Virus record (IMG/VR): IMGVR_UViG_3300037107_000172
Coordinates: 1 to 39,930 of that record
DNA from: a virus
DNA: 39,930 bases
Direction: 5' to 3' (one strand)
Made by a program: the position numbers and the translations under genes. The notes beneath the pieces are model-generated. The model worked only from the letters and a program-made list of their open reading frames with translations. It made no database searches and was not told the DNA's origin. Shown here one piece after another: positions 7,000 through 38,667 of the stretch (positions are counted from its first letter, which is position 1; every line of letters begins with the position of its first letter).

Positions 7000-7025
7000 A
7001 CTGTTTCAGGTTTCCAGCGTGCGGA

Positions 7026-9441: not shown

Positions 9442-9526
9442 TGGTTCCACCAAAGCGGGAACTATCATGCAGCCTGTGCATTAAAGTGCCCTATAAGGTT
9501 GGAACTATTGGAAAACCAAGGAAAAA

Positions 9527-9807: not shown

Positions 9808-9822
9808 TAAAACGGGACTTAA

Positions 9823-15195: not shown

Positions 15196-15209
15196 ACCTC
15201 CTTTGAATC

Positions 15210-18224: not shown

Positions 18225-18294
18225 CTATAAGTATCTAATAATGAGCAAGTTAAATACAATCCGCGTCTTGCTCAAAAAAACATCAAAAAAACAC

Positions 18295-18321
18295 TTGACG
18301 GTGAGTATCAATTGATACCAT
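18295..18321 (+). promoter_or_regulatory. Promoter with palindromic operator for toxin-antitoxin-chaperone cassette
   Basis: TTGACG (18295-18300) is followed after 15 bases by TACCAT (18316-18321). A perfect 14-base palindrome, GTATCAATTGATAC (18305-18318), lies between and over the boxes. The HTH antitoxin encoded downstream is the obvious candidate to bind it. A GAGCAAG...CTTGCTC stem (18243-18273) lies just upstream but lacks a T-tract. Confidence 0.65.
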
Positions 18322-18367
18322 TTTACTCAAGTGAAGCAGCAAACCATACGATTAGCAGGAGTAGGTA

Positions 18368-18754: not shown

Positions 18755-18769
18755 TGCGTTAAATTTTAC

Positions 18770-19920: not shown

Positions 19921-19925
19921 CGCTT

Positions 19926-23655: not shown

Positions 23656-23739
23656 TCATCCACCGCCCCACCATTGCCGCTCAAACATGTCCCGCTCAAT
23701 CCGCACCGGCACGACGCAGCGCGGATCATCCGACTTCAT
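23656..23739 (-). CDS. 27-residue frame, possible truncated phage gene
   Basis: On the minus strand an ATG overlaps the stop of the upstream connector gene as TGATG. It reads MKSDDPRCVVPVRIERDMFE, ending after WWGGG at a TGA. The sequence looks like the natural beginning of a phage structural protein that stops abruptly at the edge of the defence cluster (23643). It may be the stump left where the cargo replaced the rest of the structural operon. Confidence 0.35.
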   Translation of the reverse strand: MKSDDPRCVVPVRIERDMFERQWWGGG

Positions 23740-24293
23740 CACACCCTCACCAGCCGCACCGAGCCGCTCTTGGCGCTGATTTGCGAGCCATACTTCGCCA
23801 GCATCACTTGCGCGACTTGTGAAAGCACCGGGCGCCGGTCGGTTTTGTCGTAACCGGTTTGAATGCCGGCAGCATTGTAATACTTCAAACCTTCACCCGC
23901 CGGCGCGACCGTCCGGTCGGCAATCAAAAATTCCCGCGCCATTTCACACGTTGCCTGGACAACGGCTTTCGGCACGGTGTCATATTGAACGTAGTCATAC
24001 GGAATCGGCAGCAGCACCGAGATCGGCACATGGACGTTGTCCGGCTCGGGGCACATCGCACGCGGCCATTGCAAGGATTGCCCTGCCGTGGTCCGCGTGC
24101 CGTTGAACTGAAACTCCGCGTCAATCAGCCGCGTCGCCATCACGAGCGCCACGGCCTTTTGATCCGCGCTCGCGCCGCTCCACGCCGTGGCATACAAGTG
24201 CCCGTCGTGATACGCGTCGCCATCCGCAACGCTCGCGTAGCTGTTCGCATCCGCCCGGCCCGGCCCGTCTTCCTTGATGATTGTGAGCGACAT
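23739..24293 (-). CDS. Head-completion/DnaT-like phage protein
   Basis: The 184-residue protein begins MSLTIIKEDGPGRADANSYASVADGDAY. This is the opening of the phage family often labelled DnaT-like ssDNA-binding protein, which by genome position behaves as a head-tail connector. Its helical middle (SADQKAVALVMATRLIDAEF) followed by QSLQWPRAM fits the family. It lies downstream of the capsid gene in the order expected for head completion. The next structural gene is missing or cut short. Confidence 0.75.
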   Translation of the reverse strand: MSLTIIKEDGPGRADANSYASVADGDAYHDGHLYATAWSGASADQKAVALVMATRLIDAEFQFNGTRTTAGQSLQWPRAMCPEPDNVHVPISVLLPIPYDYVQYDTVPKAVVQATCEMAREFLIADRTVAPAGEGLKYYNAAGIQTGYDKTDRRPVLSQVAQVMLAKYGSQISAKSGSVRLVRV

Positions 24294-24299
24294 AATTGA

Positions 24300-24956
24300 T
24301 TAAATTGAAATACCGATGTGAAACACGTCCGAGAACGGCCCGACCGCCGCGCCGTTTCGATAACGGATTTTGAACCAAAAATCAGCATCACCTACGACAA
24401 CCTCCGCAATAACGTAGTGATTGTTATTGCTCGGCACGGTCGCGCGCAGGGAATAATCACTTAGATTCGGGCTTATCCAAATTTCCATGTCCGCGACGGG
24501 ATAAACGCCATAATCGAAAGTCCAATCAATCCATAAATCAACAGTCTCGTCGCCGCATTCGTATCCGCCATCGCTGATGACCGGCGCATTCGGCGGCGGC
24601 AAAGCATCTTCAGGCCGAACCGCATTGCTCCGTTCAGTGATTTCGTTTCCGCTGGCATCACACCCAACAATGAACATCGGATACTGCCCGCCGTCCGGCG
24701 CATACTGGCGGTCAGTCCCAGCGCCACGGTCGTCGTAAGTAAAAGGTTCGCCCTCCGCGTGCTGATGATAGGCATACCAGTAAGCCGGGTCGGGATAATC
24801 CCACGTCCACACCGCAAGGTCGGGATAAGCCGCCACCAGCACCGGCGCGGGCAGCAGACAACGCGACCGGCGGCGACGCTCCGCCAGCCAAGTGCGCCGT
24901 TGCAGTGGCGTCCAGGGTGAGTTACCGCGCTTTTCTTGTGGAAATGCTTTTGGCAT
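24300..24956 (-). CDS. Virion-associated protein with fibronectin-like domain
   Basis: I start at ATG 24956 (MPKAFPQEKRGNSPWTPLQR), 218 residues. The N-terminal third is basic, then an aromatic-rich stretch (WTWDYPDPAYWYAYHQ). From about residue 120 (PPPNAPVISDGGYECGDETV) to the end is a beta-sandwich with FN3-like spacing, ending VGPFSDVFHIGI. Such domains occur on phage surface and decoration proteins. It overlaps the upstream small gene by about 35 bases. The exact role is unknown. Confidence 0.6.
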   Translation of the reverse strand: MPKAFPQEKRGNSPWTPLQRRTWLAERRRRSRCLLPAPVLVAAYPDLAVWTWDYPDPAYWYAYHQHAEGEPFTYDDRGAGTDRQYAPDGGQYPMFIVGCDASGNEITERSNAVRPEDALPPPNAPVISDGGYECGDETVDLWIDWTFDYGVYPVADMEIWISPNLSDYSLRATVPSNNNHYVIAEVVVGDADFWFKIRYRNGAAVGPFSDVFHIGISI

Positions 24957-25101
24957 CGTCGGCTTTTGGCTTATCCGCCGGTTCAACCAATGGAACTGTC
25001 GCCACCGGTTGAACCGGCTTTTCTTTGGTCGGAATAGGCGGAACGTCCTCGACAATCAAAGGACGCCGCTTCCGCCGAATGATGGGAAACAATTCACTCA
25101 T
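24922..25101 (-). CDS. Small proline/lysine-rich protein
   Basis: This 59-residue product from ATG 25101 (MSELFPIIRRKRRPLIVEDV) is mostly disordered, with PVQPVATVPLVEPADKP repeats. An ATG at 25116 would overlap the upstream stop by 11 bases and is an alternative. It sits in a run of small genes behind the capsid gene. I do not recognise it; it may be a spacer or decoration peptide. Confidence 0.45.
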   Translation of the reverse strand: MSELFPIIRRKRRPLIVEDVPPIPTKEKPVQPVATVPLVEPADKPKADDAKSISTRKAR

Positions 25102-25105
25102 GGCG

Positions 25106-25333
25106 TCAGATGGCATTTGCGCCAATCGCGATTTGCCGCCAATTCGTGCCATCCGAAATGGCGAGACACGGAACAGAGCCAGTGCCGCCAGCGGACAGAT
25201 AAATGATTCGGCGCGGATTCTTCGCCGCCATGACCCCAGCGGCCACCGCCGCCGCGACGTTGGTGTATGTCGGATACTGGATTTGTTCACCCGAACGAAT
25301 CCGCTCAAAACTGCGAGGTTGAAGTTTGCCCAT
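25106..25333 (-). CDS. Small virion-type protein (75 aa)
   Basis: From ATG 25333 (MGKLQPRSFERIRSGEQIQY) this is a 75-residue protein with an Ala-rich helix (NVAAAVAAGVMAAKNP) and a beta-hairpin (RIIYLSAGGTGSVPCLAISD). GAGAAAG lies about ten bases upstream. It is placed directly after the capsid gene, where decoration or head-stabilising proteins occur. The family is not recognised. Confidence 0.6.
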   Translation of the reverse strand: MGKLQPRSFERIRSGEQIQYPTYTNVAAAVAAGVMAAKNPRRIIYLSAGGTGSVPCLAISDGTNWRQIAIGANAI

Positions 25334-25385
25334 AAAATTCTTTCTCAAAAAGCGGCGTGCCGGCGCGAACCGGCACGCCTTTGGT

Positions 25386-26396
25386 TTAGATGTTGTGAGT
25401 GACCGCCACGACCGGGACGTTTTTGTTTTCCCAAACGCGCACCCAATTTGCGGCCGTCTCCAATTCCGTGTTCGTCGGGTTTGCACCCGCAACGCTCGCG
25501 CTGGTGAACTTCACACCGCGAGGGTGAAGGATGAACCGGCGACGGTTGACCAGGAATGTGTCGCTGTTCAGAGCGTCACGCGCCATTTCGCAACCTTCCG
25601 TGCCGTGACCGCCCTCGACGGGCGCACCGTTCAGATCGGCAAAACCCATGCCGAATGAGCCGAGGCCGAACAGATAGGTCGTATAGACCAAGCCGTCAGT
25701 CGTGCCTGCACGAGAAGGACAGCCGTCATCCACAATGACGCGGCGCCCCTGGAACGTGCGAATTTGAGTTTCACCCTGGCTGTCCGGGATGAAGTCAATC
25801 AGGTCGAGTTTCCGCAATGCGGCCTCGACTGCTGAGTGCATCGCCACGGCCACCAGCCGGTCGCCACGGTCGCCAAGGCGCTGCGTCGAATCCACAAATG
25901 TCGCGCCGTTGAGCCGAGTCGCAGCAGTTTGAGCGGCGACGCTTTCACTGTGAATCGCCAACAGATTGCCCGCCATCGAAGCCGCCGAGAACACGCCCTT
26001 CAGCGAACTGATGAGCATGTATTGGTTCTGGCGATTCCAGTAGTCGGCGAGGAAGTTCGCCAACGCCAGCGCCGGATCATCACCAGCGACCACGGTTGCC
26101 AGATGATTCCACGACCACGCATTACCGTCATTGTGAATGCGGGCAATGTCCTGGTCAGCGACGAGCTTGGCCGGAACCAGCGGGGCCGAATCACTCAACG
26201 GCTGGCGGTTGCCGGTCAGGTCATTCCAGTGCGGCATGTTGACTTGCGTGCCGCCCAGCGCGGCGCGTTCGTCATAGTCCGGCGTCCGCACGACAATGCC
26301 GGATTGAAACAGGTCGGATTTCTCCGCCGTGCGTTGCAACACATACCCGGCAAATTGTGCCGGAACGATGATGTCTGCTAATTGCGTTTTAGCCAT
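25386..26396 (-). CDS. Phage major capsid protein
   Basis: The 336-residue protein fits an HK97-fold coat protein: MAKTQLADIIVPAQFAGYVLQRT, then VNMPHWNDLTGNRQPLSD, a helical spine segment with NQYMLISSLKGVF, and a peripheral domain near the C-terminus. Also present is FLVNRRRFILHPRGVKF, a common capsid ending in which the subunit describes its own tag-free beta strand. It follows portal and scaffold genes in the classic order, which strongly supports the call. ATG 26396 has no Shine-Dalgarno, like the other structural genes here. It would form the satellite or phage procapsid shell. Confidence 0.85.
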   Translation of the reverse strand: MAKTQLADIIVPAQFAGYVLQRTAEKSDLFQSGIVVRTPDYDERAALGGTQVNMPHWNDLTGNRQPLSDSAPLVPAKLVADQDIARIHNDGNAWSWNHLATVVAGDDPALALANFLADYWNRQNQYMLISSLKGVFSAASMAGNLLAIHSESVAAQTAATRLNGATFVDSTQRLGDRGDRLVAVAMHSAVEAALRKLDLIDFIPDSQGETQIRTFQGRRVIVDDGCPSRAGTTDGLVYTTYLFGLGSFGMGFADLNGAPVEGGHGTEGCEMARDALNSDTFLVNRRRFILHPRGVKFTSASVAGANPTNTELETAANWVRVWENKNVPVVAVTHNI

Positions 26397-26420
26397 AAGT
26401 GAATAATTTGGTTGTGACCC

Positions 26421-27191
26421 TTACGCCGACGCTTTCAATCGTGCGGCCAGTTGTGGGTCGGATTTCTGCAATTTCATTTGTTCCGTGAGATTCCAGCTTT
26501 CCTTGCGGAACGGATTCTTCACGGACCGGTTGCCAGCCCCACCGGAGCCGGAGCCGGCGGCACCGCCACCAGCATTTGCCTCGAACAGGTGCGGTGCATC
26601 GGACACCAACGCATCCACCCACTCGGCCAAAGTCATCGGCGTGACGCCATCCTTGCCCATGCGGGCAGTCTGGCTGTCAGCCTCAAATGCCTGGGGCACG
26701 CCGGCCACCAGCTTGAAATTCACACGTGCTCGCGACGTGATGTCAGGAATCGCCGTCGGGCGCAGACCTCGCTTGGTCGCTTCGGTGACGACGGCTTGAT
26801 CAATTTGAATCGCCGACAGGCGACCATGCAGCGCATCACGTTCAGCGACCACGACGCCATGCTGTTTCTCCCAATCGGCACGGGCGGCCTTGAGGCGCTT
26901 TTCAATGATTTTCTCGATTTCTTCCGGCTTGTGCCCTTGCGCCAGCAATTCGAGCCGTTGCTTCTCTTCGGCCAACGTGCGGACGGCTTCCGGGTCAATG
27001 CCTTCAAATTTCTTGGCGAGGTCATCACGCTCTTTCATCAGCGCGACGTTGGTCGTGCGGAACTCATCCAGCTTGGATTTTTCAACGACGCCATCGGCGT
27101 CCAGTATCCAAGCGCCGTCGCGTTCGACATAAAGGGATTGTTGTTCAACAGGAATTTCCTGCTTCGTTGCGTATTTGTATTTCAGTGCCAT
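26421..27191 (-). CDS. Phage scaffolding protein
   Basis: The 256-residue product has the typical scaffold layout. A short N-terminal region is followed by a long charged coiled coil (about 40-135, with KKFEGIDPEAVRTLAEEKQR) and a C-terminal part. That part contains a Gly/Ser linker (AGGGAAGSGSGGAGNRS) and a basic helical tail (TEQMKLQKSDPQLAARLKA), the kind that contacts the coat protein. It lies between portal and major capsid genes, the canonical site. It should guide capsid assembly and then leave the shell. Confidence 0.82.
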   Translation of the reverse strand: MALKYKYATKQEIPVEQQSLYVERDGAWILDADGVVEKSKLDEFRTTNVALMKERDDLAKKFEGIDPEAVRTLAEEKQRLELLAQGHKPEEIEKIIEKRLKAARADWEKQHGVVVAERDALHGRLSAIQIDQAVVTEATKRGLRPTAIPDITSRARVNFKLVAGVPQAFEADSQTARMGKDGVTPMTLAEWVDALVSDAPHLFEANAGGGAAGSGSGGAGNRSVKNPFRKESWNLTEQMKLQKSDPQLAARLKASA

Positions 27192-27200
27192 AAATCGGTT

Positions 27201-28724
27201 TTAGGTTATCGGTTGAGGGTTTGCAGTCGTCGCCGCCGACACCGGCGGTTTGACCGCGACCGGCGCAGTTGATTTTTTCTCCGAAGAGAGCAACTTGATT
27301 TCTTCTTCATTCGTGCGGCCAGGGGCGATGACTTCACCAGCGCGGAACAGATCGAGCATCGTGTCCTGACTGATGGCACCGGCCTGCCACGCCGCGACCA
27401 GCGCCGTGATTTCCTGAAACGACATTCCGGTAATGCTGAAATCCGTGTTCAGGCTGGCGAGGACAAGGTCGGGACCGATGGCGTCAGGAATCGGCTCGGT
27501 CGAGTTCCACCAATAAACCCAGCGCAACACTTGCGTCAGCGACGCGCTGACGCTCAAAGAGACGGTGTTCAAAATGCTGTTCTCACCACTCTGGCGGAGT
27601 TCGATGGCAGCGGCGGTTTCACCGACACGTTTGCGCGATTCGAGCATCCGCGTGCCGAGGACGGCCATGAGTTGCTCGTCGCGATCCATCGCGCGTTCAA
27701 AGGTGGACAGACCTTGACCGTGAAATTCAAGAAAGCCGGCCGTTGCTCCGGGCGTCTCGGCGACCCATGCCGTGCTGGAGCCGATCCGAAGGGAGGAATT
27801 TTTGTCGAAACCGCTGACCCATGCCGTCGGCAATGCGGTGAAGTGCATACCATGCTTGTAATCAGCGGTGAGCCGGTAATGGTCGAGATTGACGACGATG
27901 ATGTCAGCCAGGGGGATTTTATCCACTTCCGGCAAGGAGTGGCGCGGACCATGAAAGACAAAGGGAATTAGCGGCAGTTGTTTGCCAAGGCGAAGCGGCG
28001 TCAGGGTGTCCACCAGCTTCCATTTCTTTTTGCCGCGATTGCGAGGGCCGCTTCCATTTTGGCCGTCCGCAAGGAACTGCCAGATTTCGACCTGATAAGA
28101 CCAGTCGGCCTTTGTGTTGTCAGCCGTTGTTTGCGGCGGGACAAGTTTCAGGACGCGAAGTTGCTGGATTTCTTCCGGCTCGAAAGGATCAGTTTCCGCA
28201 ACAGGCATCTGACTGACTTCCTTGAGGACGACGAGCGTCAGCACGTTGCGGCCATTCACCCGTTCCGTGTGCCAGTTGATGATGTCTTCAGCGGCATAGG
28301 CGATGGCATAGGCGCGTTGCTCAGCTTCCTCGTTCCAATCCACAAGCGTGCCAGACCGACCGACATTGATAATTTCCGCGACCAGCTTTTTCGAGAATGC
28401 AGTCAAGCTGGTCCCCAGCATGTCGGCATCTTCCACAAATTCGGTGAGCGCATCACCAACGCCGGAAGTTTTATCCGGCAATTTGAAGGTTGGATCACGG
28501 CGGAAAATCAGTCCAACGAAACCATCCGCCGTGCGGGCAGAGGCGTTGAAAAAGGAGGCGCGATTTTTGTAGGCGAGATATTCTTTGTCGTCCTGACAGT
28601 CGAGACGCGGCAGATACTTTTCAGCAGCGGCTTTGACGGCATCCTCGCCGGCGAAGACATCACGGGCGCGCAGCCAGGCAGGCAGGTTTGCGTCGTATTC
28701 AGGATGTGTGGAATTCACAGCCAT
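27201..28724 (-). CDS. Phage portal protein (DUF4055-like)
   Basis: The 507-residue protein matches DUF4055 portal proteins: YDANLPAWLRARDVFAGEDAV at the N-terminus, KNRASFFNASARTADGFVGL, IINVGRSGTLVDW, then VNLDHYRLTADYKHGMHFTALPT. The helical barrel segment (SGENSILNTVSLSVSASLTQVLRWVYWW) precedes a disordered Pro/Ala tail. Twelve such subunits form the DNA entry ring that docks the terminase. The start ATG 28724 has no ribosome-binding site and a promoter-like pair of boxes lies directly upstream. In ordinary phages it follows the large terminase gene; here 5 kb of unrelated DNA lies between. Confidence 0.88.
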   Translation of the reverse strand: MAVNSTHPEYDANLPAWLRARDVFAGEDAVKAAAEKYLPRLDCQDDKEYLAYKNRASFFNASARTADGFVGLIFRRDPTFKLPDKTSGVGDALTEFVEDADMLGTSLTAFSKKLVAEIINVGRSGTLVDWNEEAEQRAYAIAYAAEDIINWHTERVNGRNVLTLVVLKEVSQMPVAETDPFEPEEIQQLRVLKLVPPQTTADNTKADWSYQVEIWQFLADGQNGSGPRNRGKKKWKLVDTLTPLRLGKQLPLIPFVFHGPRHSLPEVDKIPLADIIVVNLDHYRLTADYKHGMHFTALPTAWVSGFDKNSSLRIGSSTAWVAETPGATAGFLEFHGQGLSTFERAMDRDEQLMAVLGTRMLESRKRVGETAAAIELRQSGENSILNTVSLSVSASLTQVLRWVYWWNSTEPIPDAIGPDLVLASLNTDFSITGMSFQEITALVAAWQAGAISQDTMLDLFRAGEVIAPGRTNEEEIKLLSSEKKSTAPVAVKPPVSAATTANPQPIT

Positions 28725-28732
28725 TTAAGGCT

Positions 28733-28761
28733 TATTTATTCCACAACCGGCATTTCGTCAA
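28733..28761 (-). promoter_or_regulatory. Promoter candidate for capsid operon
   Basis: Minus strand TTGACG (28761-28756), a 17-base spacer, TAAATA (28738-28733). The predicted transcript start falls within about two bases of the portal ATG, suggesting a nearly leaderless message. Confidence 0.45.
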
Positions 28762-28913
28762 ACATTACTTGTTGTTATTCAATGACTTATGCACGTTGTT
28801 GCATGTAATTTCATTTTCTCGCCGGTTGTTTCCACATACCCAAGAAGTCCAAAGGAAGTAATTTAGCAGATTCTCGCCCCCCTGCCCCCCAACCCCCATT
28901 TTTTTGGCAGCAT

Positions 28914-29849
28914 TCATTGTTTAATTTCAACATCGGGTGGAATACGCGAATCCGCGACTCGCTTCCAACGACGCGCAGCAAACGAGTTCTCGAAAGTCTC
29001 GTCTCCGACACGAACATACACGAGATCATATTTTTGATCGTTTGAAGGAATGTAGAAAGTAGCGTTCTGGCCGACCAGGCCTTTACTGGGAGGATTGAAA
29101 TCTGGCGTGATCAGCGCCTTGCCGACCACCGAGATGGAGCGCCCCTTCAAATCGTATTTCTTCGGATACTGCACATAATTAACCAAAAATGAGAATTGCA
29201 GAGCGGGAATATCGTGCGGGAAAGTAACGTGGATGGAGCCATTGTCGTGAGGCTGGACTTCGTAGTCAAAGTGGGGGCCTAGATCGTTATCATACGCATC
29301 CGCGAAATCCGTCAGGATTCCCGACAACTCCTCGTTGGCCCATCCCCGCACGACCACTTCTTTCCCATTCGCTGGCTTCGGAATATTCGCTGATTCACGC
29401 GGGGCTTGAATGATTTTCACTCCAATATCTTTCCCCTCCATTGCACCTTGCAATATTTTAGCGATGTGATCAAGGTTGCCATTACCAAATCCGGTCATTA
29501 TGCGAACTCGCCGCCCAACCTCCGTCCTGGATTTAAATACGATGGTAACAAAATCGGGTCCTCTGCCACCGTGATGTTTGCCAATTCGCTCAATCAGCGA
29601 CACAGGAACACGCGCCTCTCGACTAAAACCACGAATTATCAGGGTGTCTCCGTCAAGTATGACCTGCTTAAAACTCGAAAACCACCACAAGGCGATGACT
29701 GAAACCGGGGGGAGAATGTAATACATGACATCGCCTCTATGATTTCCATCCACGGAACCCTTTATCGTCATGCCCCACATGAAAAAAAGGAAGATGTAAA
29801 TCAACCACTTGTGAAACGCAGTCGAAAACGCTGAATCGAGTCGTCGCAT
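28914..29849 (-). CDS. Membrane protein with PH-like domain
   Basis: The 311-residue protein starts with two closely spaced hydrophobic spans (WLIYIFLFFMWGMTI and VMYYILPPVSVIALWWF). A beta-rich region follows (QVILDGDTLIIRGFSREARV, then IERIGKHHG) that looks like a bacterial PH-type domain, and a long cytoplasmic or periplasmic tail closes it. It is not a phage structural gene. Its composition, less GC-rich than the portal gene, and its place between portal and terminase mark it as inserted cargo. It may be a host-altering membrane factor; function is unknown. Confidence 0.7.
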   Translation of the reverse strand: MRRLDSAFSTAFHKWLIYIFLFFMWGMTIKGSVDGNHRGDVMYYILPPVSVIALWWFSSFKQVILDGDTLIIRGFSREARVPVSLIERIGKHHGGRGPDFVTIVFKSRTEVGRRVRIMTGFGNGNLDHIAKILQGAMEGKDIGVKIIQAPRESANIPKPANGKEVVVRGWANEELSGILTDFADAYDNDLGPHFDYEVQPHDNGSIHVTFPHDIPALQFSFLVNYVQYPKKYDLKGRSISVVGKALITPDFNPPSKGLVGQNATFYIPSNDQKYDLVYVRVGDETFENSFAARRWKRVADSRIPPDVEIKQ

Positions 29850-30732
29850 ACTGATAAACGACTACCAGAAATTTTACCGAGGCACAAGCGGCTTGCGGTG
29901 GTTTTGCGATTTGTTTCAACTTCGCACCGCCCTTGATAATTCAACCGTTCAAATAATTCGCAAATCGCTTGGCATTCGACACACGCAACCAGGAGAACTC
30001 GTTTGTCACACACAATTTCAACCCGACTTCAACCTCGTTCGTCCTTCAAAGACAAACGTTGGTTCGCTTCGCTCAACGAAATTTTAGTTCGCGCTGCACT
30101 CCATTCGTGTGCTCAATAACCTACGATGCGCCCACACGTCGAAAGTCGTTCCATTTGCCAAAGTCACGTCCGCGCACGCGCATGCCTGACGCCCATGCAC
30201 GTCGGGTGGGGCTGTCATCGGCTTCGGCGAAAGTTTTCAGGTAATCCAACGTGCCTCATGCTACCAACGTCATCCCCAGCCCCACCCGCCGGCACCGCGC
30301 CGCCTTCACTGGTTTTACTACGTCATCCCCGGCGGCGCTTGGGCTACCCTCGCGCGCACGTTGGACGACCCATCTTCATCGGATGTTTTCGGGGCAATCC
30401 AACCGTCCAGGTTTTCCAACGGTTTCAGGGCGCGAGGGTCAGGCATGAAAAGATGGCCGCTTCGCGGAAGAAAAGAAATTGGCAACGCCGCTGTCGCGGC
30501 GCAAAACAGCAGCCCAGGCTTCACAGAGCCGACGCTTCCCCGAAAGCATTCGGGGCAAGTATCGGCACTGTTTCGCCCACGCCCTGGCCGGACTCGCCAG
30601 CTTTGCAGACCGTTCCACTCCGCTGCACTAATCCGCTTCGCAGGCTACGCGGAGCGTTTCGCTGCGTTCCAACGGCCGCAAACAGACGAGACCGGCCTCA
30701 GATCGGGCGCACCCAAAAGAAACAACAGCAGG

Positions 30733-30884
30733 ATGTCGCAAGGCTTCGCCCGACATGAAAAAGCAATATCGTAATCCGATTACGCCGGTTGGTCGCGAGG
30801 CTTCGCCCGACCAAAACCTGCAATAGCCCGCGATGCTTCGCACGGGCAAGACATCGGCAATACGGCGCGAGGCTCCGCCCGGCC
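30733..30884. repeat. Four tandem hairpins with conserved loop and co-varying stems
   Basis: Hairpin 1: ATGTCG (30733-30738) with CGACAT (30751-30756). Hairpin 2: TTGGTCG (30789-30795) with CGACCAA (30808-30814). Hairpin 3: GCCCG (30826-30830) with CGGGC (30843-30847). Hairpin 4, imperfect: GGCG with CGGCC (30880-30884). The loops are all 12 bases and near-identical (CGAGGCTTCGCC and variants), while the stems differ but still pair. Looser relatives with 12-base loops occur at 30057-30078 (CGTTG/CAACG) and 30632-30653 (TCCGC/GCGGA). Confidence 0.65.
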
Positions 30885-31405
30885 AAGACATCGGCATTAA
30901 CCGTGAGCACGGCCATTTTCCGTCCGCTACACTCCGCTGGCGCTCCATTCGCCGCCCGGAAGAATGTCCGACCTCACTGATAAAAACACATTGGTCTGAC
31001 ACCTGAGCGTCACATTCCGCACCCGGTCTGCCTGCTGCCCCCTGTTACCTTGACAGCCGCAGCCCTTGCGCTCCATGTGACCGTGCAAGGCACTCGCTCA
31101 GGAGTCAGAACAAGCCGCGCTCGCGCTAGCGCGACTCGCCAAACGAACGGCGCGTCAGACTGCGGCCAATGGCTTCGGCTACGATGCTCGTTCCTGCGCG
31201 TCTGTGCCTACACGATTGGTCGCAGACTGTCGCTTCAGGTAAGAGCGCCCGTGCTGTGCGGACGCGGCTGCTCGCACCGGCGCAGGAACCACAGCAGACC
31301 CGGCAAATAATTGGCCAATGGCGGCGCTGTTGGCATGAAGCACCAGCCGACGCTACGCTTCTCACTGCGTTCCGAGGCTGGGTGTCGGCTTTGCTTCCGG
31401 TGGTT

Positions 31406-31536
31406 CACACAACACACATTGTGCGTTCGTTCCACTCGTTCCTCGTTCCACACCTTTATTCTTTTCGTGCAGACACTCCCCGCTCGCGGGTGCCCTTCTG
31501 CACGGAATAAAGGGTCGCACAATGTGCCGTTGTGTG
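31406..31536. repeat. Long nested hairpin of about 131 bases
   Basis: Four helices nest in order: 31406-31425 with 31516-31536 (one insertion), CCTTTATTC (31453-31461) with GAATAAAGG (31505-31513), CGTGCAG (31466-31472) with CTGCACG (31498-31504), and CCCGC (31479-31483) with GCGGG (31486-31490). Such a stack is far beyond chance and would form a stable RNA arm or DNA cruciform. Confidence 0.7.
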
Positions 31537-31551
31537 CAGCACCGCTGCTTC

Positions 31552-31624
31552 ACTGTCACGCTCACTCTCGCGGACGGCTGCACTGACCCTGCGCCCCCGC
31601 CGTCCAGGCAGCGAGCGTGACAGT
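31552..31624. repeat. Second long hairpin
   Basis: A perfect 12-base stem, ACTGTCACGCTC (31552-31563) with GAGCGTGACAGT (31613-31624), encloses GGACGGC (31572-31578) with GCCGTCC (31599-31605). It follows the 131-base hairpin by 15 bases. Confidence 0.7.
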
Positions 31625-31947
31625 TCGCAGGCATCCTTCACGCCAACTGCGCCGAAGCGGAACGACCAGCCGGGTCTGCTGCCCCAAATCCCCCGCCCAC
31701 CCCGTTGCGCCTTTGCCCCCTCCATCCCCAGGGGGCGGCGCTAAAGGCAGGTGGCGCTGCCACGTTTTCAGGTCCGGCTTTTTCTGCCCTGCGTTTCTCT
31801 CCATCGCCCTCACTGCGTCACCGCAACACCAGCCCGCCCTACGCGGCGACCTTCCTATGGATTCCTTCCGCAGGGAGGGCTGGCGGCTCCGCTTCTTAGT
31901 GACGGGCGACGGACAGAAGACGCACAGCAGAGCAGAAAAAAAAGACC

Positions 31948-32361
31948 ATGAAAACAAATACAAAAAATATATCAGGGCTCGGGAGCAGATCCGCACAGTT
32001 GAGTAGTAACAACACCGCAGCAGCGGAAGCGCCAGCGCAGAAGCCGGACAATCGTTTGCCGATTGACACCGAGGCGCGGAAGAAAAACCGCACCTTGCCC
32101 ACCACCAAAGTTTTGGAGCTTTTGAAAGCCAGCAATCCGGGTTTGTTCAATCTCGCCGAGGTTGTCGGCAGGTGGATTTGGGTTGCGTTCCGCGAGACAC
32201 CCGCGCCGGAGTTGCGGCAGCAGTTGGCGCAACTTGGTTTCCATTGGAACCGTGAGCGCCAAGCATGGCAGCACCCTTGCGGAGTTTTCCGTTTGGGCAG
32301 CCAGACCGACCCGCACCAGAAGTTTTCAAGCTACTTCCACGCCGACATCAAGGCCGCCTGA
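31948..32361 (+). CDS. Hypothetical plasmid/island-type small protein
   Basis: The 137-residue protein has a disordered Ser/Asn/Ala-rich N-terminus (about 1-45). A compact domain follows, with VLELLKASNPGLFNLAEVVG, VGRWIWVAFRETP, and LAQLGFHWNRERQAWQHPCG. The last part reads like a small fold in which a Trp/His-rich motif compares expected with found residues, as in proteins accompanying DUF6573 genes. I do not know its function. It lies just after the structured gene desert and 57 bases ahead of the DUF6573-like gene on the same strand, so they may be co-transcribed. Confidence 0.65.
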   Translation: MKTNTKNISGLGSRSAQLSSNNTAAAEAPAQKPDNRLPIDTEARKKNRTLPTTKVLELLKASNPGLFNLAEVVGRWIWVAFRETPAPELRQQLAQLGFHWNRERQAWQHPCGVFRLGSQTDPHQKFSSYFHADIKAA

Positions 32362-32418
32362 CACCAACCGGGCGGCAGCAATGCCGCCCCATTCCTTCAT
32401 TTTCAACCACATCACACC

Positions 32419-32880
32419 ATGAACACAGACCCAAATATCAATCCAGAGGAAGCACTCGCCGCTGTTTTCGGCGAGCCGCAGCAGATCGCCGACGGCATCA
32501 CCGCGTTTGGCCCGGTGATTTACGCCTACACCCGAGCACAGGCTGTCGCCGACGGCGTGCAGGTTGAAGTCACCAAGACCGCGCAGGAAGCCGGAATCAA
32601 GTTTCCGGTTTTCATCACACGCACGGTTTTTGATGCTTACGTAGCCGTGCCGGAAGGCGTGACCGGGCAAGATGAAGCCGGACGCCTTTGGGACATTGTC
32701 TGGATGCTCCGTTTCGGAATCATCCGCAGCCGCCCAGGTTGCGACCGCATCCCGGTTGCGTTCTACGTCCGCAACGACAACCAGCGTTCCCGCCTCATCA
32801 AATTGATTGCCACTTGCGGCCCGCTCGACATTGACGACCCGCAGCCCGCCATCACCGTGATGATGCCGGACGAAGATTGA
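32419..32880 (+). CDS. DUF6573-like protein
   Basis: The 153-residue product matches the pattern I know from DUF6573 proteins: YTRAQAVADGVQVEVTKTAQ, FPVFITRTVFDAYVAVP, GQDEAGRLWDIVWMLRFGI, then VAFYVRNDN and CGPLDIDDPQPAITVMMPDED at the end. These proteins are widespread on plasmids and integrative elements, and no biochemical function is known to me. Its presence supports a mobile origin for the 28.9-33.9 kb segment. No Shine-Dalgarno precedes ATG 32419. Confidence 0.8.
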   Translation: MNTDPNINPEEALAAVFGEPQQIADGITAFGPVIYAYTRAQAVADGVQVEVTKTAQEAGIKFPVFITRTVFDAYVAVPEGVTGQDEAGRLWDIVWMLRFGIIRSRPGCDRIPVAFYVRNDNQRSRLIKLIATCGPLDIDDPQPAITVMMPDED

Positions 32881-32929
32881 CCAGCAGACACACCGCGCCC
32901 GACGCCACCGCGCCGGGCGTAATAATTTT

Positions 32930-32960
32930 CGCGGCTGAACGCCCATGTCGTTCAGCCGCG
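32930..32960. terminator. Perfect 11-base stem-loop after DUF6573 gene
   Basis: CGCGGCTGAAC, a 9-base loop, GTTCAGCCGCG. It lacks a T-tract on the plus strand, so it may be a Rho-dependent or processing stem rather than a classic terminator. Confidence 0.4.
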
Positions 32961-33005
32961 CAGCCATTTCTTGACGAGTAGGAGAGCGTGAAATAAGGTC
33001 GCCCA

Positions 33006-33314
33006 ATGCCACCGAGCGAACCACCCGTCACCCGTATCCATGTGGAGTATGCGGATGGCAGTTCTGACAAAATCACGTTGCTCCAACGTGGAGCGTGTCC
33101 ACTTTTTCGCCTTGAACGAAAGCGGCCTGATGCCGAGATGTGTAACTTGGGTGCATATTCGGCAGGCGCTATCGCTGGCTTGCTCTTTCGCACGGCAGTG
33201 ACCACCGAACGCACTGAAAAGCCGTTTGACGACCCTAAACTTAAAGCTGTTCTGCGCCAGTGGTTTGATCAACCGCCAAAAAAAAGCAGCCAAGAAGGAA
33301 GTCAGCCAAAATGA
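33006..33314 (+). CDS. Small hypothetical protein (102 aa)
   Basis: The 102-residue product starts MPPSEPPVTRIHVEYADGSS, a beta-rich opening, followed by a helical segment (GAYSAGAIAGLLFRTAVTTE) and a charged Lys-rich tail. I recognise no family. It overlaps the next gene by four bases (ATGA), so the two form a translationally coupled pair. It is part of the plus-strand cargo between terminase and portal genes. Confidence 0.55.
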   Translation: MPPSEPPVTRIHVEYADGSSDKITLLQRGACPLFRLERKRPDAEMCNLGAYSAGAIAGLLFRTAVTTERTEKPFDDPKLKAVLRQWFDQPPKKSSQEGSQPK

Positions 33315-33883
33315 CGCCGTCGAATTTAGGGCAGATTCTGCATCTTGATGATGCAGCGTTCGTTTCCTCTGTCAAAAGGATGTTAGAAAGTTCTCATCCT
33401 GCCGCTTGGACCATGTGTGTGGTTGCATATCAGAATTTAAATCCAATGCTTCAGGCTTGCGAAGAACTTTCCCACGAAGAAAGAGGGAAAGATGTCCCTG
33501 CTGACCTTGACTCATTTATCAGAATGCTATGTTTGCGACTCGATGAACAATTGGAGGAAATTCCTAAGCGTCGTCTCGCATGGTTCTTCCAAGCGGCTTT
33601 GATTCGCCGCGCGACTGAAATTGCATCTCGCAATACTAATCTCCAATCCGACGTCGCAGCGCTTTGGATAATGCTCGCACAAGGATCAGCAAATCTCAGT
33701 GAATTGCTTCCCCAAAATTTATTATGGTCTGATGATGAGAAGGCATATTTTGTCGACATCAAGAATCAACATGATGGAATCTGGTATTGTCTCCAGATTC
33801 TTACGCCAGGCTATCTGCGTATAGACAAACAAATGATTTCGTTCGCAAATTCACATGACATTATTCTTCTGCCAAGATTGTAA
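33311..33883 (+). CDS. Hypothetical helical protein
   Basis: The 190-residue product is predominantly helical (VSSVKRMLESSHPAAWTMCV, LDSFIRMLCLRLDEQLEEIP), soluble, with no signal peptide or recognised motif. Base composition is lower in GC than the terminase gene that abuts it tail to tail (one base apart). With the 102-residue partner it forms a two-gene unit that could be a toxin-antitoxin or anti-phage pair, but nothing in the sequence proves this. Confidence 0.6.
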   Translation: MTPSNLGQILHLDDAAFVSSVKRMLESSHPAAWTMCVVAYQNLNPMLQACEELSHEERGKDVPADLDSFIRMLCLRLDEQLEEIPKRRLAWFFQAALIRRATEIASRNTNLQSDVAALWIMLAQGSANLSELLPQNLLWSDDEKAYFVDIKNQHDGIWYCLQILTPGYLRIDKQMISFANSHDIILLPRL

Positions 33884-33884
33884 T

Positions 33885-35282
33885 TTACAACCCCCGCAAC
33901 TTCCGTTGCGTGACCGTCCGCGACTTCGTCGCCACCAGGTAGCGTAGGACATCCGCCGCGTCATCGCCGCCGATGCCATCCTCGTCGCAATCCACCTTCA
34001 AAACATCTTCAGGCCGGTTCGGATCATGTTGCAACGCCGGCAGCGTTTCGAGCAACCGCCCGCACCGCTTATGAATGAAAAGCGTCGGGCGAATCCCGGC
34101 CTCGACATCACCGAACCCTTGCAGAATTTCCGCCCAGCCATTCACGCGGTCCATGTTGGCTGCGCGCAGCCGGATTCCCTGCCGTTCGTATTGTTGCGCG
34201 ACGGTGGTTCCGTCGCCCTGGCGGGAAAACACATCCGCGCCGGCCACGAACCGGCGGAGATCCTCGACGGCCAGTTTCCGGTCGCCGATTTTGTGCCGTG
34301 CCAGCATCGCCTTGATTGCCGCCGCGTGGCGCTGCGGCAGCCAAAGCCGCTCCGCGTGTTCATCCACGACGAACGTGTTCCCGTCGCCATCCCGACACCC
34401 GAGCAGGCAGACGGTGTAATGCACATGGCCGTAATCCAGTGCGGCAAACCATTCAACCGCCCGCGAATCGTCGAAATCCTCGACGACGTGAAACTCGCGG
34501 CGAAAGGTCGAGAAAAATTGGCCCGCCGCAATATCCCAATCGCCATCCAGCCATGCCCGTTTCTGCCAGCCGGTCAACCCTTCCAGCACCCGGACGTAAT
34601 CAGGATTATTCCAGCGATTGTCGGTGACACGGGCGGGGATAAAGCGCGTTTCTGACTCCCGTTTTTCCTGAAATGGCACGATGAATTTCGTCCGATACCA
34701 AGCATGGCCCACGCCGCCAGGATTCGTGGTCGAATACATGCGCGGACGCCAATTCGGCTTGGACGAGCGGCAGCAGGTCGTGATGTCCTGGTATTTCCGG
34801 CTGGTCAACGTCGTGGCCTCCTCGATCCCGATGATGTCGTATTCCAGGCCGAGGTAGGCATCAATATCCTTCTCATTCTGGAAATGGCCGGCAATGATGC
34901 GAGAGCCATTGGCAAACGTCAGGATGCCACGGAATGCCGAGAACTCGTGCGGCAGCCGGTTAAATAGCTTCCGGCGCAAGTCCTCGAAGTGTTCCAAATT
35001 TGCTTTACCAACTTTGCGGAGCAGCAGGCATTTCAAGCCGGCGACGCGCTGGCAATCGTCCACCCCCATTTGTGCCAGCAGCCAATGCGATTTCCCGCCG
35101 CCGCGCGCCCCGCCGTAACCGATGGCCGTCGGCCCGCCGGCATGGTCGCACAGCCGGGCGGCAGCACAGGCCATAAGCTGCCGCTCGTGCAGGAAAGCGT
35201 CGGCGTGAACCAGCCGGACCAGTTGCGACGGCGGACACCCCGCTTTCATGCCGGCGGCGGAAAAAACGGCGGCTTCGTTCAT
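33885..35282 (-). CDS. Phage terminase large subunit
   Basis: I start at ATG 35282, which overlaps the small-subunit stop (ATGA); 465 residues. Walker A is GGARGGGKS (57-65), Walker B is IIGIEEAT (about 150-157), and a coupling-type STTNPGG follows. The nuclease half begins near WFAALDYGHVHYTV with its metal-binding Asp, and DAADVLRYLVA near the end is the familiar late acidic motif. It is a complete packaging motor that would cut and pump element DNA into the capsid. The longer frame upstream of 35282 is the shadow of the small subunit. Confidence 0.93.
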   Translation of the reverse strand: MNEAAVFSAAGMKAGCPPSQLVRLVHADAFLHERQLMACAAARLCDHAGGPTAIGYGGARGGGKSHWLLAQMGVDDCQRVAGLKCLLLRKVGKANLEHFEDLRRKLFNRLPHEFSAFRGILTFANGSRIIAGHFQNEKDIDAYLGLEYDIIGIEEATTLTSRKYQDITTCCRSSKPNWRPRMYSTTNPGGVGHAWYRTKFIVPFQEKRESETRFIPARVTDNRWNNPDYVRVLEGLTGWQKRAWLDGDWDIAAGQFFSTFRREFHVVEDFDDSRAVEWFAALDYGHVHYTVCLLGCRDGDGNTFVVDEHAERLWLPQRHAAAIKAMLARHKIGDRKLAVEDLRRFVAGADVFSRQGDGTTVAQQYERQGIRLRAANMDRVNGWAEILQGFGDVEAGIRPTLFIHKRCGRLLETLPALQHDPNRPEDVLKVDCDEDGIGGDDAADVLRYLVATKSRTVTQRKLRGL

Positions 35283-35887
35283 GGCTGGCCCCCTTTGCCC
35301 TCCTCCAGCTTCGCCGGAGGCGCCACCGGCTCGACTTCCACAATCGGCGCATCGTCGGGCAGACCGTAGGCTTTGCGGATGGCTTGCTCCCACTCCACCG
35401 ACACCTTGCCGGTGACGTGCTGATGCACTTCCTTGATCTCCGATGGAATCCCGGCGGCGAACTGCTTGAGCTTGAACGCCAGTTCCAGCATTCGCGCCAT
35501 GCCTTCAAAGCCAGGCACCCGCCCTGATGCTCGCCAGCGCCGCCGTGCCTCCCGAACGTCGGCAATCGCCTCCTCGGCCTCCAGCCACGCCTGCCGCTTG
35601 GCTGGCTCGTGCAATTGCCACCATTCCACCGCCTTTTCGCAGGCCAACCGCTCAATGGCCTGCCGTTCCAATTCGGCAAAATGGGCATCCCGCGCCGCCA
35701 CCCGCCCCTGCCAGTCAAATTTTACCGACCACCTTTTCAGAAAAGGCACAGATTTGGCTAACTTCTGGCTAACGCCAGCTATGGACCGTTCCGGCCCCAT
35801 TTCCAGGTAAGCCTTGAACGCGGCGAATGCCTTGTTCGACTCTCGCGGCTGTTGTTCAAATGGGTGATTTGCAGTTTGGAGATTCAT
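35279..35887 (-). CDS. Terminase small subunit-like protein
   Basis: From ATG 35887, which overlaps the primase stop as ATGA, the product is 202 residues. The N-terminal part (NKAFAAFKAYLEMGPERSIA then VSQKLAKSVPFLKRWSVKFDW) is a helix-turn-helix of the kind that recognises the packaging site. The middle is a long coiled coil and the C-terminus is a Pro/Glu-rich tail that would contact the large subunit. In satellites this subunit redirects packaging to the satellite genome, which would be the case here if the island is one. Confidence 0.82.
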   Translation of the reverse strand: MNLQTANHPFEQQPRESNKAFAAFKAYLEMGPERSIAGVSQKLAKSVPFLKRWSVKFDWQGRVAARDAHFAELERQAIERLACEKAVEWWQLHEPAKRQAWLEAEEAIADVREARRRWRASGRVPGFEGMARMLELAFKLKQFAAGIPSEIKEVHQHVTGKVSVEWEQAIRKAYGLPDDAPIVEVEPVAPPAKLEEGKGGQP

Positions 35888-37191
35888 TTGAATGATTTTG
35901 GGAGCAGCCACTTGAAACGGGCCGCGGATTTATTTGGGACATAATCCACGGTCTTGGAAATGGCACCCAGCCGGGCGAGCTTGTCCCGAATCCCCGCCGC
36001 ACCGTTGCCGGTTATGCCCAACCGGGATGCCAAATTGTCGCGCACAATCGGAAAATCCGCCGCGCCGTCTTGCTCCGCTTTGCGGGCAAAGCTTCGCACA
36101 ATCCGAAACGCATCGCGCTCGTTGTCAGTTTCCAGCCGTGCAACAAATTGTCGCTCGGAATCTGAAAGACTGGATACCCAACTTTCCATGAGCCCGGACC
36201 ACAAATCATCAAAACTTGCCATGTGATCCTGTTCGTCGGCCTCGGTAGGAACAGATTTGCGCTGAAATTGAGCCTGAGCTGTTTGTCTCGCCACAGTGAA
36301 GCCTAATTGATGAAAAGCAGCACCAGTTAAAGCAGCGAGTTGGTTATTACGGGTGTTTGACTCCTTAATGCTGAATTTACGAAGAAGTTCCAATTGAGTG
36401 TGATTAGAAATAAAAGAAGGAGAGAAAGAACCTTTTTTCTTTGTATCGGGGAAGCGAGTTTCTAAACCCTTGCAATTCAAGGGGGCAGTTTTTGACTTCC
36501 TCGATAGGACAGTTTCAAGGGAAGTGCGGCAATTTTCCCAAACAATTCCCGAGCAACTTTCCGTGCCGGGATTCCAGCAACCAGGCGCACGCATCCCTTT
36601 GCCAAAACGAGACGGCAGACTGTCAGGTGGAAAGATTTCGCAGACGCCGGCGGCGATGACTGTGCCGATGGCCGCAACAACCGATTTTAGTAGCCGAACC
36701 CATTCGCCAGCCGGCTGAAAGTCCGGCGAGATCGCCCAGACGTGCCAGCCACCGCTGCCGCTTGTTTCCAGAATCACGGCAAAACCGGGGGTGTTCAACA
36801 ACACCCGGAAAGCGGCAAATGCCAACTCCCGCGCCCTGTCGGCCTGGCCGGGCTGGTGGGCGTCAAAGTCCATACCGCCCCAACGCGATTGCTGCTGGGC
36901 GTTGACCGAATAGGGGACAAAGGCTAAACGGGATTTCGGCGAACCGGCGATGCTTCCCCAACTCCATGAGATTGCCCGTCCAACCGACAACTTCTTGCTG
37001 CGAACATATTTTTTGCACCCGTCCTTGTTACGAAAGCCCATGACGAAATGCGTAGTGTCGTTTTCGTTATGAAGATGCTCGCAAAGGGCCGTCCATTCGA
37101 TCTGCGAATAAACCGCGTCGGCACGTTTCGGCTGCCAACTCAAAACGGCGAGCGGATTCGGGCCTGCCCGTTCTAATTGGGAAATTTTCAT
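35884..37191 (-). CDS. Archaeo-eukaryotic-type primase, phage/satellite replication protein
   Basis: The 435-residue protein carries the metal-binding GGMDFDAH (106-112, D-x-D) and the nucleotide-binding SGSGGWHVWAI (144-154) of AEP-type primases of the kind in conflict-system and plasmid primases. The C-terminal 100 residues (FPIVRDNLASRLGITGNGAA, then RDKLARLGAISKTVDYVP) form a winged helix for origin recognition. No helicase domain is visible. It sits behind the excisionase-like gene and in front of the terminase genes, the position of the replication gene in phage-inducible islands. Codons such as AGT/CAA are commoner in the middle, but I see no frame break. Confidence 0.78.
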   Translation of the reverse strand: MKISQLERAGPNPLAVLSWQPKRADAVYSQIEWTALCEHLHNENDTTHFVMGFRNKDGCKKYVRSKKLSVGRAISWSWGSIAGSPKSRLAFVPYSVNAQQQSRWGGMDFDAHQPGQADRARELAFAAFRVLLNTPGFAVILETSGSGGWHVWAISPDFQPAGEWVRLLKSVVAAIGTVIAAGVCEIFPPDSLPSRFGKGMRAPGCWNPGTESCSGIVWENCRTSLETVLSRKSKTAPLNCKGLETRFPDTKKKGSFSPSFISNHTQLELLRKFSIKESNTRNNQLAALTGAAFHQLGFTVARQTAQAQFQRKSVPTEADEQDHMASFDDLWSGLMESWVSSLSDSERQFVARLETDNERDAFRIVRSFARKAEQDGAADFPIVRDNLASRLGITGNGAAGIRDKLARLGAISKTVDYVPNKSAARFKWLLPKSFK

Positions 37192-37226
37192 CCGTTCATC
37201 TCGGCGTAGGTGAGAAAGCGGTGAAA

Positions 37227-37460
37227 TTATCTCCGCCCGGCAGCTTTGGCGTCGAAGTGGGCCTTGACGATTATCGGGTCGAAGAAAACCCGCCGGCCAA
37301 TTTTGGCAAATGGCAGCGCCCGCGCTTTTTGCTGGTCCCGAAGCCAGCGAAGACTGGGTCGGCTCGCTTCATCGAATAGAATTTCGAGCAGTTTGGGGGC
37401 ATCCACATAGCGTGTCGCCAGTGCGTTTTGTTTCTCGGTCTGCGATGTTAATTCATTCAT
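37227..37460 (-). CDS. Excisionase/AlpA-like small HTH protein
   Basis: The 77-residue product has a MerR/Xis-type winged helix: KLLEILFDEASRPSLRWLRD followed by KARALPFAKIGRRVFFDPII, where Phe-Ala-Lys-Ile-Gly-Arg-Arg is the usual wing. Proteins of this family (AlpA, Xis) bend DNA at attachment sites or turn on island excision. The gene lies 35 bases before the primase and follows a strong inverted repeat at 37544-37580 that could be its operator. It is the natural partner of the integrase at the island edge. Confidence 0.78.
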   Translation of the reverse strand: MNELTSQTEKQNALATRYVDAPKLLEILFDEASRPSLRWLRDQQKARALPFAKIGRRVFFDPIIVKAHFDAKAAGRR

Positions 37461-37543
37461 GTCATCAACTGTGTTTAGTCAACTGGTTTAGTTGCGTTGA
37501 CCTGCACGTTGATGACTTTAGGCCGAATGAAAGAAACCTCACC

Positions 37544-37580
37544 TATATGGGCCAAACGCAAAACAGGTTTGGCCCATATA
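37544..37580. promoter_or_regulatory. Perfect 14-base inverted repeat upstream of excisionase-like gene
   Basis: TATATGGGCCAAAC (37544-37557), a 9-base loop, GTTTGGCCCATATA (37567-37580). No T-tract follows on the minus strand, so an operator is more likely than a terminator. It fills most of the 124-base gap between two genes. Confidence 0.6.
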
Positions 37581-37584
37581 CGTG

Positions 37585-38649
37585 CTATGGAGAATTTGGG
37601 GGCGGTCCGGACGAATGTTTTGCGACCAGTCCAAGCGTGCGATAACGGAAGTGTTTCACCTGTCCCGACGTGAATTTCGTTTCAAGAATTTCGCCCAGTT
37701 TCTGGGCAAGCTCCTCATCGGAAAGATAGCACCAGCCCAATTCCCATTTGAAGGCGAGCAGATAAATTGCCGTATCAATGATTTTGCTTTTCCCCCGCTT
37801 GGTATAGTTATGTGCCGCCTTGTGCAATGAAGATATGAGCTGCATATCGGCGCGCACCTTGCCGCCATCGGCTGACTTCAGCGAGGATTCCCCGCCATTC
37901 CTGACCAAGTCCAACAGGTAGGCATCTTCCATCTGCTGGTCGGTGATTGTGACACCTGGATTTGATTTCTGTCGCTCAAAGATTTCAAAACAGTGCGGCC
38001 ATTGTTTTTGCAATGCCGTCATTTTGGCAGTTCCCAAATCCTGAATGTCGGACTTGGTTAGCGGTATGCAACGTGGCGGCGGCGGTGGCGTGACGCTTTT
38101 ATTGACCGAATCGAAATATGCCGCTTTTTTCTTGTTGGATTCTTCCACCCATTTATTTGACCAATACTTGGCTTCACCTTCGGAATTCGTTTCCTTTCGC
38201 TGGAGCGTTTTTATTTCCAAGGTGTCTTTATCTGTCTCGCGCTCAACCACCACCCATAATTGTTTCCCATCGGGTAGGTTTTTGAAAAAGATCACAATTT
38301 CAGTGACAAAGCGGCGGAAACCCGTCACCCACCCGACTATCCCGCCACCCGCCCATTGTGCAGATACAAGATGCTTTTTGCTTCGGTTGCTAAGATTTTC
38401 GTAAGTCTCCTTGGTCTCTGTTTCCGTTTGGCAGAGAACACCAGCCCCTTTTTGTTCCATCTTCAACCCGTCAATGATTTGAAATGGCGCAACCAAGTAT
38501 GAAAAATCCTGCCCATCCTGCTGGTGTGGTTCGCCGAGCTTCGCCCAAAGATAACGAACGCCGTCGCCAAAATCTTTCTTTACCGCATCAGTCAATTGCT
38601 CTGGGCTTGCCAGAGTTAGCGTAAATTGGCTTTTCAGCGCAGCTTTCAT
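37585..38649 (-). CDS. Hypothetical protein next to integrase
   Basis: The 354-residue protein is soluble, with a mixed alpha-beta N-terminal half (FSYLVAPFQIIDGLKMEQKG; AGGGIVGWVTGFRRFVTEIV). A poly-Pro linker (VTPPPPPRCIPL) comes around 190, and a helical C-terminal half has a possible winged helix (LSDEELAQKLGEILETKFTS). I do not recognise a family. It lies 18 bases beyond the integrase stop on the same strand, so it is probably co-transcribed with it and could be an island-specific regulator or replication factor. Confidence 0.62.
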   Translation of the reverse strand: MKAALKSQFTLTLASPEQLTDAVKKDFGDGVRYLWAKLGEPHQQDGQDFSYLVAPFQIIDGLKMEQKGAGVLCQTETETKETYENLSNRSKKHLVSAQWAGGGIVGWVTGFRRFVTEIVIFFKNLPDGKQLWVVVERETDKDTLEIKTLQRKETNSEGEAKYWSNKWVEESNKKKAAYFDSVNKSVTPPPPPRCIPLTKSDIQDLGTAKMTALQKQWPHCFEIFERQKSNPGVTITDQQMEDAYLLDLVRNGGESSLKSADGGKVRADMQLISSLHKAAHNYTKRGKSKIIDTAIYLLAFKWELGWCYLSDEELAQKLGEILETKFTSGQVKHFRYRTLGLVAKHSSGPPPNSP

Positions 38650-38667
38650 ATCCCGAATTTTCCTCCA

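Follow-up and report, generated by a model that had tools for sequence, protein, structure and literature searches.

Few RNAs of bacteria and phages are as large, or as poorly understood, as GOLLD and ROOL. Both are encoded by phages and prophages: GOLLD is a large, ornate RNA of unknown function with one half more conserved than the other, and ROOL, exemplified by a molecule of 659 nt, is a large structured RNA for which no protein partner has been identified (PMC12286853). Abundant long non-coding transcripts are also produced by the PLE satellites and phage ICP1 (PMC7567579). Known satellites carry varied defence cargo (PMC11389934). The capsid-forming PICIs (cfPICI) are attributed in PMC11389934 and PMC10803314 to Alqurainy 2023, and PMC10803314 gives Enterobacteriaceae/Firmicutes as their hosts.

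The window analyzed here comprises all 39,930 bases of one IMG/VR virus record, and a gene-free stretch within it (29850-31947) lies between a minus-strand ORF with a start codon (28914-29849) and a plus-strand ORF beginning with ATG (31948-32361). An earlier sequence-only reading of this stretch had described more than 2 kb without a convincing gene and with many inverted repeats, and had proposed a large structured RNA of no named class or, alternatively, a repeat-rich remnant; it mentioned neither the minus strand, nor a split into two elements, nor a satellite-like carrier. The lack of a gene was borne out by the flanking ORFs and by the ORFs called mechanically within the stretch, the frame and place of which vary among homologues. 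Six inverted-repeat pairs of 12–15 nt each were confirmed.

Folding energies of 600-nt windows were compared with dinucleotide shuffles on both strands. The z-scores were approximately −7 on either strand for 31201-31800 and −7.5/−5.8 on the two strands for 31501-32100, only −1.4 to −3.3 for 30001-31500, and mostly between −5 and +2.6 for the remaining windows tested in 24001-38700. The right-hand part of the gene-free stretch therefore folds far beyond chance unaided, and the left-hand part needs homologues to be convincing. A search of the whole window against Rfam 15 at the gathering score gave no match, in agreement with the earlier view that no named class applies, and a relaxed search (E up to 10) of the gene-free region gave just three chance-level matches. 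No tRNA or tmRNA was detected in the window, and a distant blastn search against phage and plasmid collections gave no match.

Searching with p137, the conserved 137-aa protein of no known family encoded by the plus-strand ORF (31948-32361), retrieved eight viral contigs and 46 bacterial-genome loci, nearly all from MAGs of Verrucomicrobia subdivision 3 / Limisphaerales. Two elements were distinguished. The larger, RNA A (29974-31690, minus strand, approximately 1.5–1.7 kb), is present in 51 distinct copies in Limisphaerales-type Verrucomicrobia; it shares 67–87% nucleotide identity with its viral relatives, with mosaic insertions. The smaller, element B (31763-31947), is structured and in the alignment ends at the p137 start codon. 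In about ten loci, RNA A is located downstream of p137 and the adjacent DUF6573 gene (32419-32880, plus strand; Pfam PF20213, E 8.5e-21), with element B still fixed to the p137 start codon. Because B stays with p137 when A is elsewhere, A and B are separate elements, and a single plus-strand RNA spanning both was rejected.

A covariance model built on 31540-31657 detected RNA A in 10 of the 384 genomes searched from the class. Most of these belong to a single order, for which the model gave 33 positive genomes out of 320. Up to seven copies were found per MAG, a number possibly inflated by mis-binned contigs. All of the carriers are metagenome-derived, and their MAG contigs may be incomplete or mis-binned. 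A second, truncated copy inside one element was observed at L035, L037, L048, L049, L165 and L167, which from the sequences looks as if the RNA region had been duplicated or swapped by recombination. At L121, a lone fragment of the core domain (9508-9864) lies amid ordinary chromosomal genes, with no integrase or phage genes nearby, and may be a relic or a domesticated copy. RNA A matches no Rfam family and constitutes a previously undescribed family of folded RNA; in the open-access literature, we found no report from Verrucomicrobia of either a structured RNA or satellites that form capsids.

The consensus from 26 near-complete copies contains approximately 30 helices, with 245 pairs that are at least 70% Watson–Crick, 136 of which occur in two or more Watson–Crick forms. 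Covariation was assessed against a tree-based null, in which the substitutions of each branch were redistributed over columns, with a threshold of E ≤ 0.05 across all column pairs; this simulation is an in-house approximation of the R-scape idea, and its E-values are approximate. With 26 copies, 12 pairs passed, 10 within the predicted structure as compared with 0.006 expected. With 51 copies, 16 pairs passed, including 14 Watson–Crick covarying base pairs distributed over about ten helices. The strand-neutral helices of the 51 copies contained 277 inferred replacements of one Watson–Crick pair by another, and the core domain structure outscored 500 shuffles and all slid versions of itself in paired cells and covariation score. 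We conclude that part A of the gene-free stretch almost certainly encodes a folded RNA.

These results also bear on the repeat-rich remnant and on a decayed coding region, which the sequence-only reading had set against its own proposal. In several copies, hairpin modules have been shuffled, duplicated or truncated, and the isolated L121 fragment lies among host genes, as might be expected of a relic. However, the architecture is conserved in 51 copies, no reading frame is conserved, and the folding and homologue comparison which that reading had suggested yielded significantly covarying pairs. The covariation refutes a relic for RNA A as a whole, and this explanation is barely credible; both a decayed gene and a random repeat relic were ruled out as candidates.

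The best-conserved part of RNA A is a multi-branched domain (31292-31681), defined by predicted helices, covariation and the shuffle and slide controls. In the consensus structure it is closed by the helix 31296-31304/31669-31677, followed by a long helix (31321-31342/31634-31655, covarying pair 31339/31637). Its arms comprise an optional arm at 31345-31390, and those at 31398-31425/31516-31544 (covariation in 31417-31423/31518-31524, with pairs 31417/31524, 31418/31523 and 31423/31518), 31452-31473/31497-31515 (31457/31509) and 31552-31568/31608-31624 (31565/31611); a further pair, 31546/31629, covaries significantly. Adjacent to this domain is a lineage-specific insertion of 179 nt (31113-31291); the window and L002, its closest relative, are the only copies that have it in full. 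The insertion holds the hairpin that occupies the 31345-31390 slot in other lineages, showing that hairpin modules move around.

The remainder of RNA A contains a long hairpin (30995-31110) with covariation in 31003-31012/31079-31101 (31003/31101, 31004/31100, 31012/31079) and at 31020/31070, and an array of hairpins in units of 35–40 nt (30734-30890), recognized from direct repeats, the alignment and the covarying pair 30800/30806. The array units are joined by the linker GCAATA (plus-strand reading), vary in number between relatives, and, read on the minus strand, have GAA, GGA or GCA as inner loops. Further along are a helix at 30587-30612/30673-30696 in the consensus structure, a hairpin at 30523-30541/30552-30571 (30525/30569), and a region of crossing helices (30165-30440). 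Here, the 10-bp helix 30171-30180/30351-30360, which includes the covarying pair 30175/30356, crosses 30346-30349/30436-30439, which includes 30349/30436. The two helices have comparative support and from their sequences may form a pseudoknot, although an inner extension of the second competes with the first. The crossing repeats that the earlier reading had placed at 31157-31289 are a different matter: they lack comparative support, because they lie in the insertion that no copy other than those of the window and L002 has in full.

On the minus-strand reading, the 5' end of RNA A is on the side of 31690, possibly further out, at a G-rich hairpin or in element B. This G-rich hairpin, which is followed by G-tracts (31720-31750, minus strand), is present in 23 of 48 copies, and a G-quadruplex-like pattern was found in 21 of 48, as compared with 4.9 in shuffles.

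The strand of RNA A was assessed from the tolerance of an RNA helix for G–U but not A–C, a pair of mismatches that swap when the opposite strand is read, using helices selected without G–U scoring. In the plus reading of the 51 copies, Watson–Crick pairs changed to G–T in 30 events and to A–C in 89 (p about 1e-9), and the baseline for equivalent changes in unpaired columns was 1995 (G–T type) versus 1783 (A–C type). A per-pair sign test gave 8 versus 40 (p about 3e-6), and a cell-level test gave 202:74 on the minus strand and 112:125 on the plus strand. For RNase P of related genomes, the cell-level control gave 53:23 when the true strand was read and 32:32 when the opposite one was; an event-level control with ten RNase P sequences showed no strand preference (14 versus 13), so the method carries noise. 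In the minus reading, 24 of 26 copies share one fixed G–U pair, and inner loops read GGGA (GNRA) in several lineages despite wholly different stems. The G–U tolerance therefore makes the minus strand the most likely one, and these substitution patterns suggest that RNA A is very likely transcribed from it. The proposal of a large structured RNA is thus borne out by covariation against the tree-based null, strand-specific G–U tolerance and minus-strand GNRA loops.

In the window, the minus strand of RNA A is co-directional with the integrase, primase, terminase and head genes, and opposite to the downstream plus-strand gene. Promoter and terminator searches around RNA A gave counts equal to those in shuffles, and no common T-run was present on the 3' side of the copies. 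This orientation also bears on the possibility that RNA A serves a p137–DUF6573 operon as a regulatory leader on the plus strand. In most loci A and B do immediately precede p137 in the plus-strand direction, and B folds right up to its start codon. However, the loci with RNA A downstream of p137/DUF6573, the occurrence of RNA A without p137 at L118, and G–U tolerance on the opposite strand make such a leader highly improbable for RNA A, and the idea may apply to element B only.

Strand tests of element B favored the minus strand in a first set (9 versus 28) and were ambiguous in a larger one (8 versus 15, p = 0.21). Element B contains a poly-A run and abuts the p137 start codon, and could be a regulator of p137 translation or a separate minus-strand RNA. 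For p137, no match was found in Pfam or PHROG, and the AF2 model, of low confidence (pLDDT 69.5), had no PDB match. The protein carries a strictly conserved LGFHWNRERQAWQHPCG-type motif, and is a possible candidate for a nucleic-acid-binding partner.

The element carrying RNA A probably extends from a 31-bp att core (9522-9552), which has 97% identity with the 3' end of the tRNA-Pro that a related element uses, to the tyrosine integrase at the right end of the window (38668-39930, minus strand, PF00589), because the att core adjoins an integrase that belongs to another element in tandem. Profile matches within it identified a plus-strand defence cargo (11312-22667) of DUF499, DUF3780, a DUF1156 methyltransferase and a PLD-SNF2 helicase, and minus-strand head genes (23739-28724) for the head-tail adaptor Ad1, p251, a Gp13-like capsid, a scaffold and a DUF4055 portal. 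The large and small terminase subunits follow at 33885-35911 (minus strand; PF03237, phrog_6299). The order scaffold-portal, RNA A, p137-DUF6573, terL-terS recurs in most loci. The tandem element (1-9552) uses the same att site, and contains an integrase (8182-9468, minus strand), ligase-like and replication-like ORFs, and a 381-aa capsid-like ORF (3873-5018) without a PDB match; it may be a small, unrelated virus or satellite.

A related element of 38.65 kb (G011:C87), which contains a copy of RNA A, is bounded by perfect 38-bp att repeats in a tRNA-Pro gene. It contains head, terminase, primase/helicase, integrase, methyltransferase and Z1/AIPR-type defence genes, with no tail or lysis family among the matches listed (25 of 27 PHROG families), and just two ORFs of approximately 250 aa between Ad1 and attL. 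No clear att repeats were found on the other long contigs. The defence cargo varies across A-carrying elements, and distant relatives of the DUF499/DUF3780/DUF1156/PLD-helicase set of the window flank A elements in G001:C56, G553:C15 and G566:C8.

The carriers could instead be ordinary temperate phages with unrecognised short-tail genes, together with decayed prophages. No carrier contig, the window record included, was matched by a tape-measure profile, and a baseplate profile search that included the window record gave no match. The absence of a tail is a profile-search result, weakened by the probably poor coverage of Verrucomicrobia phage tails in databases. One tail-protein family and one head-closure family were matched among ORFs flanking three further elements, and the DUF4055 portal, found here with a Gp13-like capsid, is of a type possibly compatible with a short-tailed phage. 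Capsid-less islands, described below, could be deletion products; against this, several of them are compact, with integrase and primase intact, and the att-bounded 38.65-kb element leaves only the two ORFs between Ad1 and attL. We regard ordinary phages with a real RNA as a doubtful explanation, and satellite-like elements as the probable one.

At least four compact islands that have neither terminase nor capsid genes also contain RNA A. The first (G230:C32) contains full-length RNA A, a Fic cargo gene, two primase genes, a tRNA-Pro, a weak 15-bp attL candidate, and an integrase 86% identical to that of the window. The second (G562:C87) has type I restriction-modification cargo and a tRNA-Pro, and the third (G566:C8) has Hma-type defence and a tRNA-His; G568:C24 is the fourth. 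A genome-wide search located the terminases of these four genomes on other contigs, and genome G230 contains both capsid-bearing and capsid-less islands on different contigs. Some islands consist of just integration and replication genes and cargo, plus RNA A. Its presence in such islands shows that RNA A is not tied to the capsid module, and RNA A is probably central to the way of life of these islands.

The main rival to a transcribed RNA is a cis-acting DNA site, in which the structure would act as a folded single-stranded origin, or as a pac/cos-like site through which capsid-less islands would be packaged by capsid-making relatives. The position of RNA A fits such a site, as it accompanies primase and integrase in capsid-less islands and elsewhere lies between terminase and portal, and so does the presence of both island types in genome G230. 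A single-stranded DNA structure would likewise tolerate G–T over A–C. C(GNA)G triloops, typical of stable DNA mini-hairpins, are seen in the hairpin array; as a DNA signature they were dropped, there being too few perfect cases. Pairing in DNA only, considered on account of few mismatches and no plus-strand G–T enrichment, was weakened by the minus-strand G–U tolerance that emerged with a larger set of copies, and is retained here as this rival. Approximately 1.5 kb, with helices closing 290–370 nt apart, is large for an origin or packaging site, however, no skew switch was found at the locus, and strand-specific G–U tolerance and GNRA loops suit RNA better. Altogether, a DNA site appears rather unlikely.

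The favored reading is a minus-strand structured RNA of approximately 1.5–1.7 kb at the core of integrative satellites of Limisphaerales, either capsid-forming or reduced, the reduced members containing integrase, primase and cargo only, alongside RNA A. Taken jointly, and leaving its role aside, we consider this on balance likely. RNA A would most likely be made upon induction of the element and fold into a multi-domain particle, in which the repeated hairpin array would offer a multivalent docking site, and may, by analogy with GOLLD and ROOL, serve as a scaffold or sponge in replication or particle formation. This is the role that we favor, tentatively, and we would not put it at even chances. 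It is unlikely, though conceivable, that RNA A works as a giant RNA machine specific to satellites and required by capsid-forming and capsid-less islands alike, and as a shared "key" through which the latter exploit the former. The capsid-less island would then be a satellite of a satellite, and RNA A might, for instance, help in packaging or assembly; with similarly low probability, RNA A would then rank, leaving aside rRNA and large ribozymes, with the largest families of structured RNA in bacteria.

An independent RNA family of about twice the length, in an apparently unreported satellite family with capsid-forming and capsid-less members, would help to separate hypotheses on the role of giant phage RNAs. 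For RNA A, a role requiring the capsid or tRNA genes of the carrier itself would be excluded by islands without both. RNA A also provides a marker for locating such islands in Verrucomicrobia genomes.

Among described elements, cfPICI is the closest carrier type. Like cfPICI, the carrier is an integrase-bounded island, with att repeats in G011:C87 and an att core in the window, and has its own terminase, portal and capsid, and cargo. Profile searches recognised no tail genes in the window or among the families listed for G011:C87, but matched a tail-protein family near three further elements. It differs in its Verrucomicrobia host, DUF4055 portal, Gp13-like capsid and giant RNA, and, being likened through gene content, is not assigned to cfPICI. 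PLE and ICP1 provide a parallel in satellite-linked long non-coding RNAs, although their transcripts were defined by RNA-seq and RNA A by conserved structure.

RNA A shares with the giant ornate phage RNAs a very large structure supported by covariation and a phage, prophage or satellite carrier. It resembles GOLLD in being large, ornate and phage/prophage-encoded, with more- and less-conserved halves, but is about twice as long, has no Rfam match and contains a hairpin array; GOLLD is found near tRNA islands, whereas RNA A is flanked by terminase and portal genes or resides in islands that lack a capsid. With ROOL, it shares phage/prophage encoding, large size, structure and the lack of an identified protein partner, but the 659-nt ROOL example compares with approximately 1.5–1.7 kb for RNA A, which has no Rfam match and a different carrier and hosts. 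Against the Rfam 15 covariance models of GOLLD, ROOL, OLE and every remaining family, RNA A scored below the gathering score. By analogy, RNA A would work most like GOLLD and ROOL, yet as an unrelated family of roughly twice the size.
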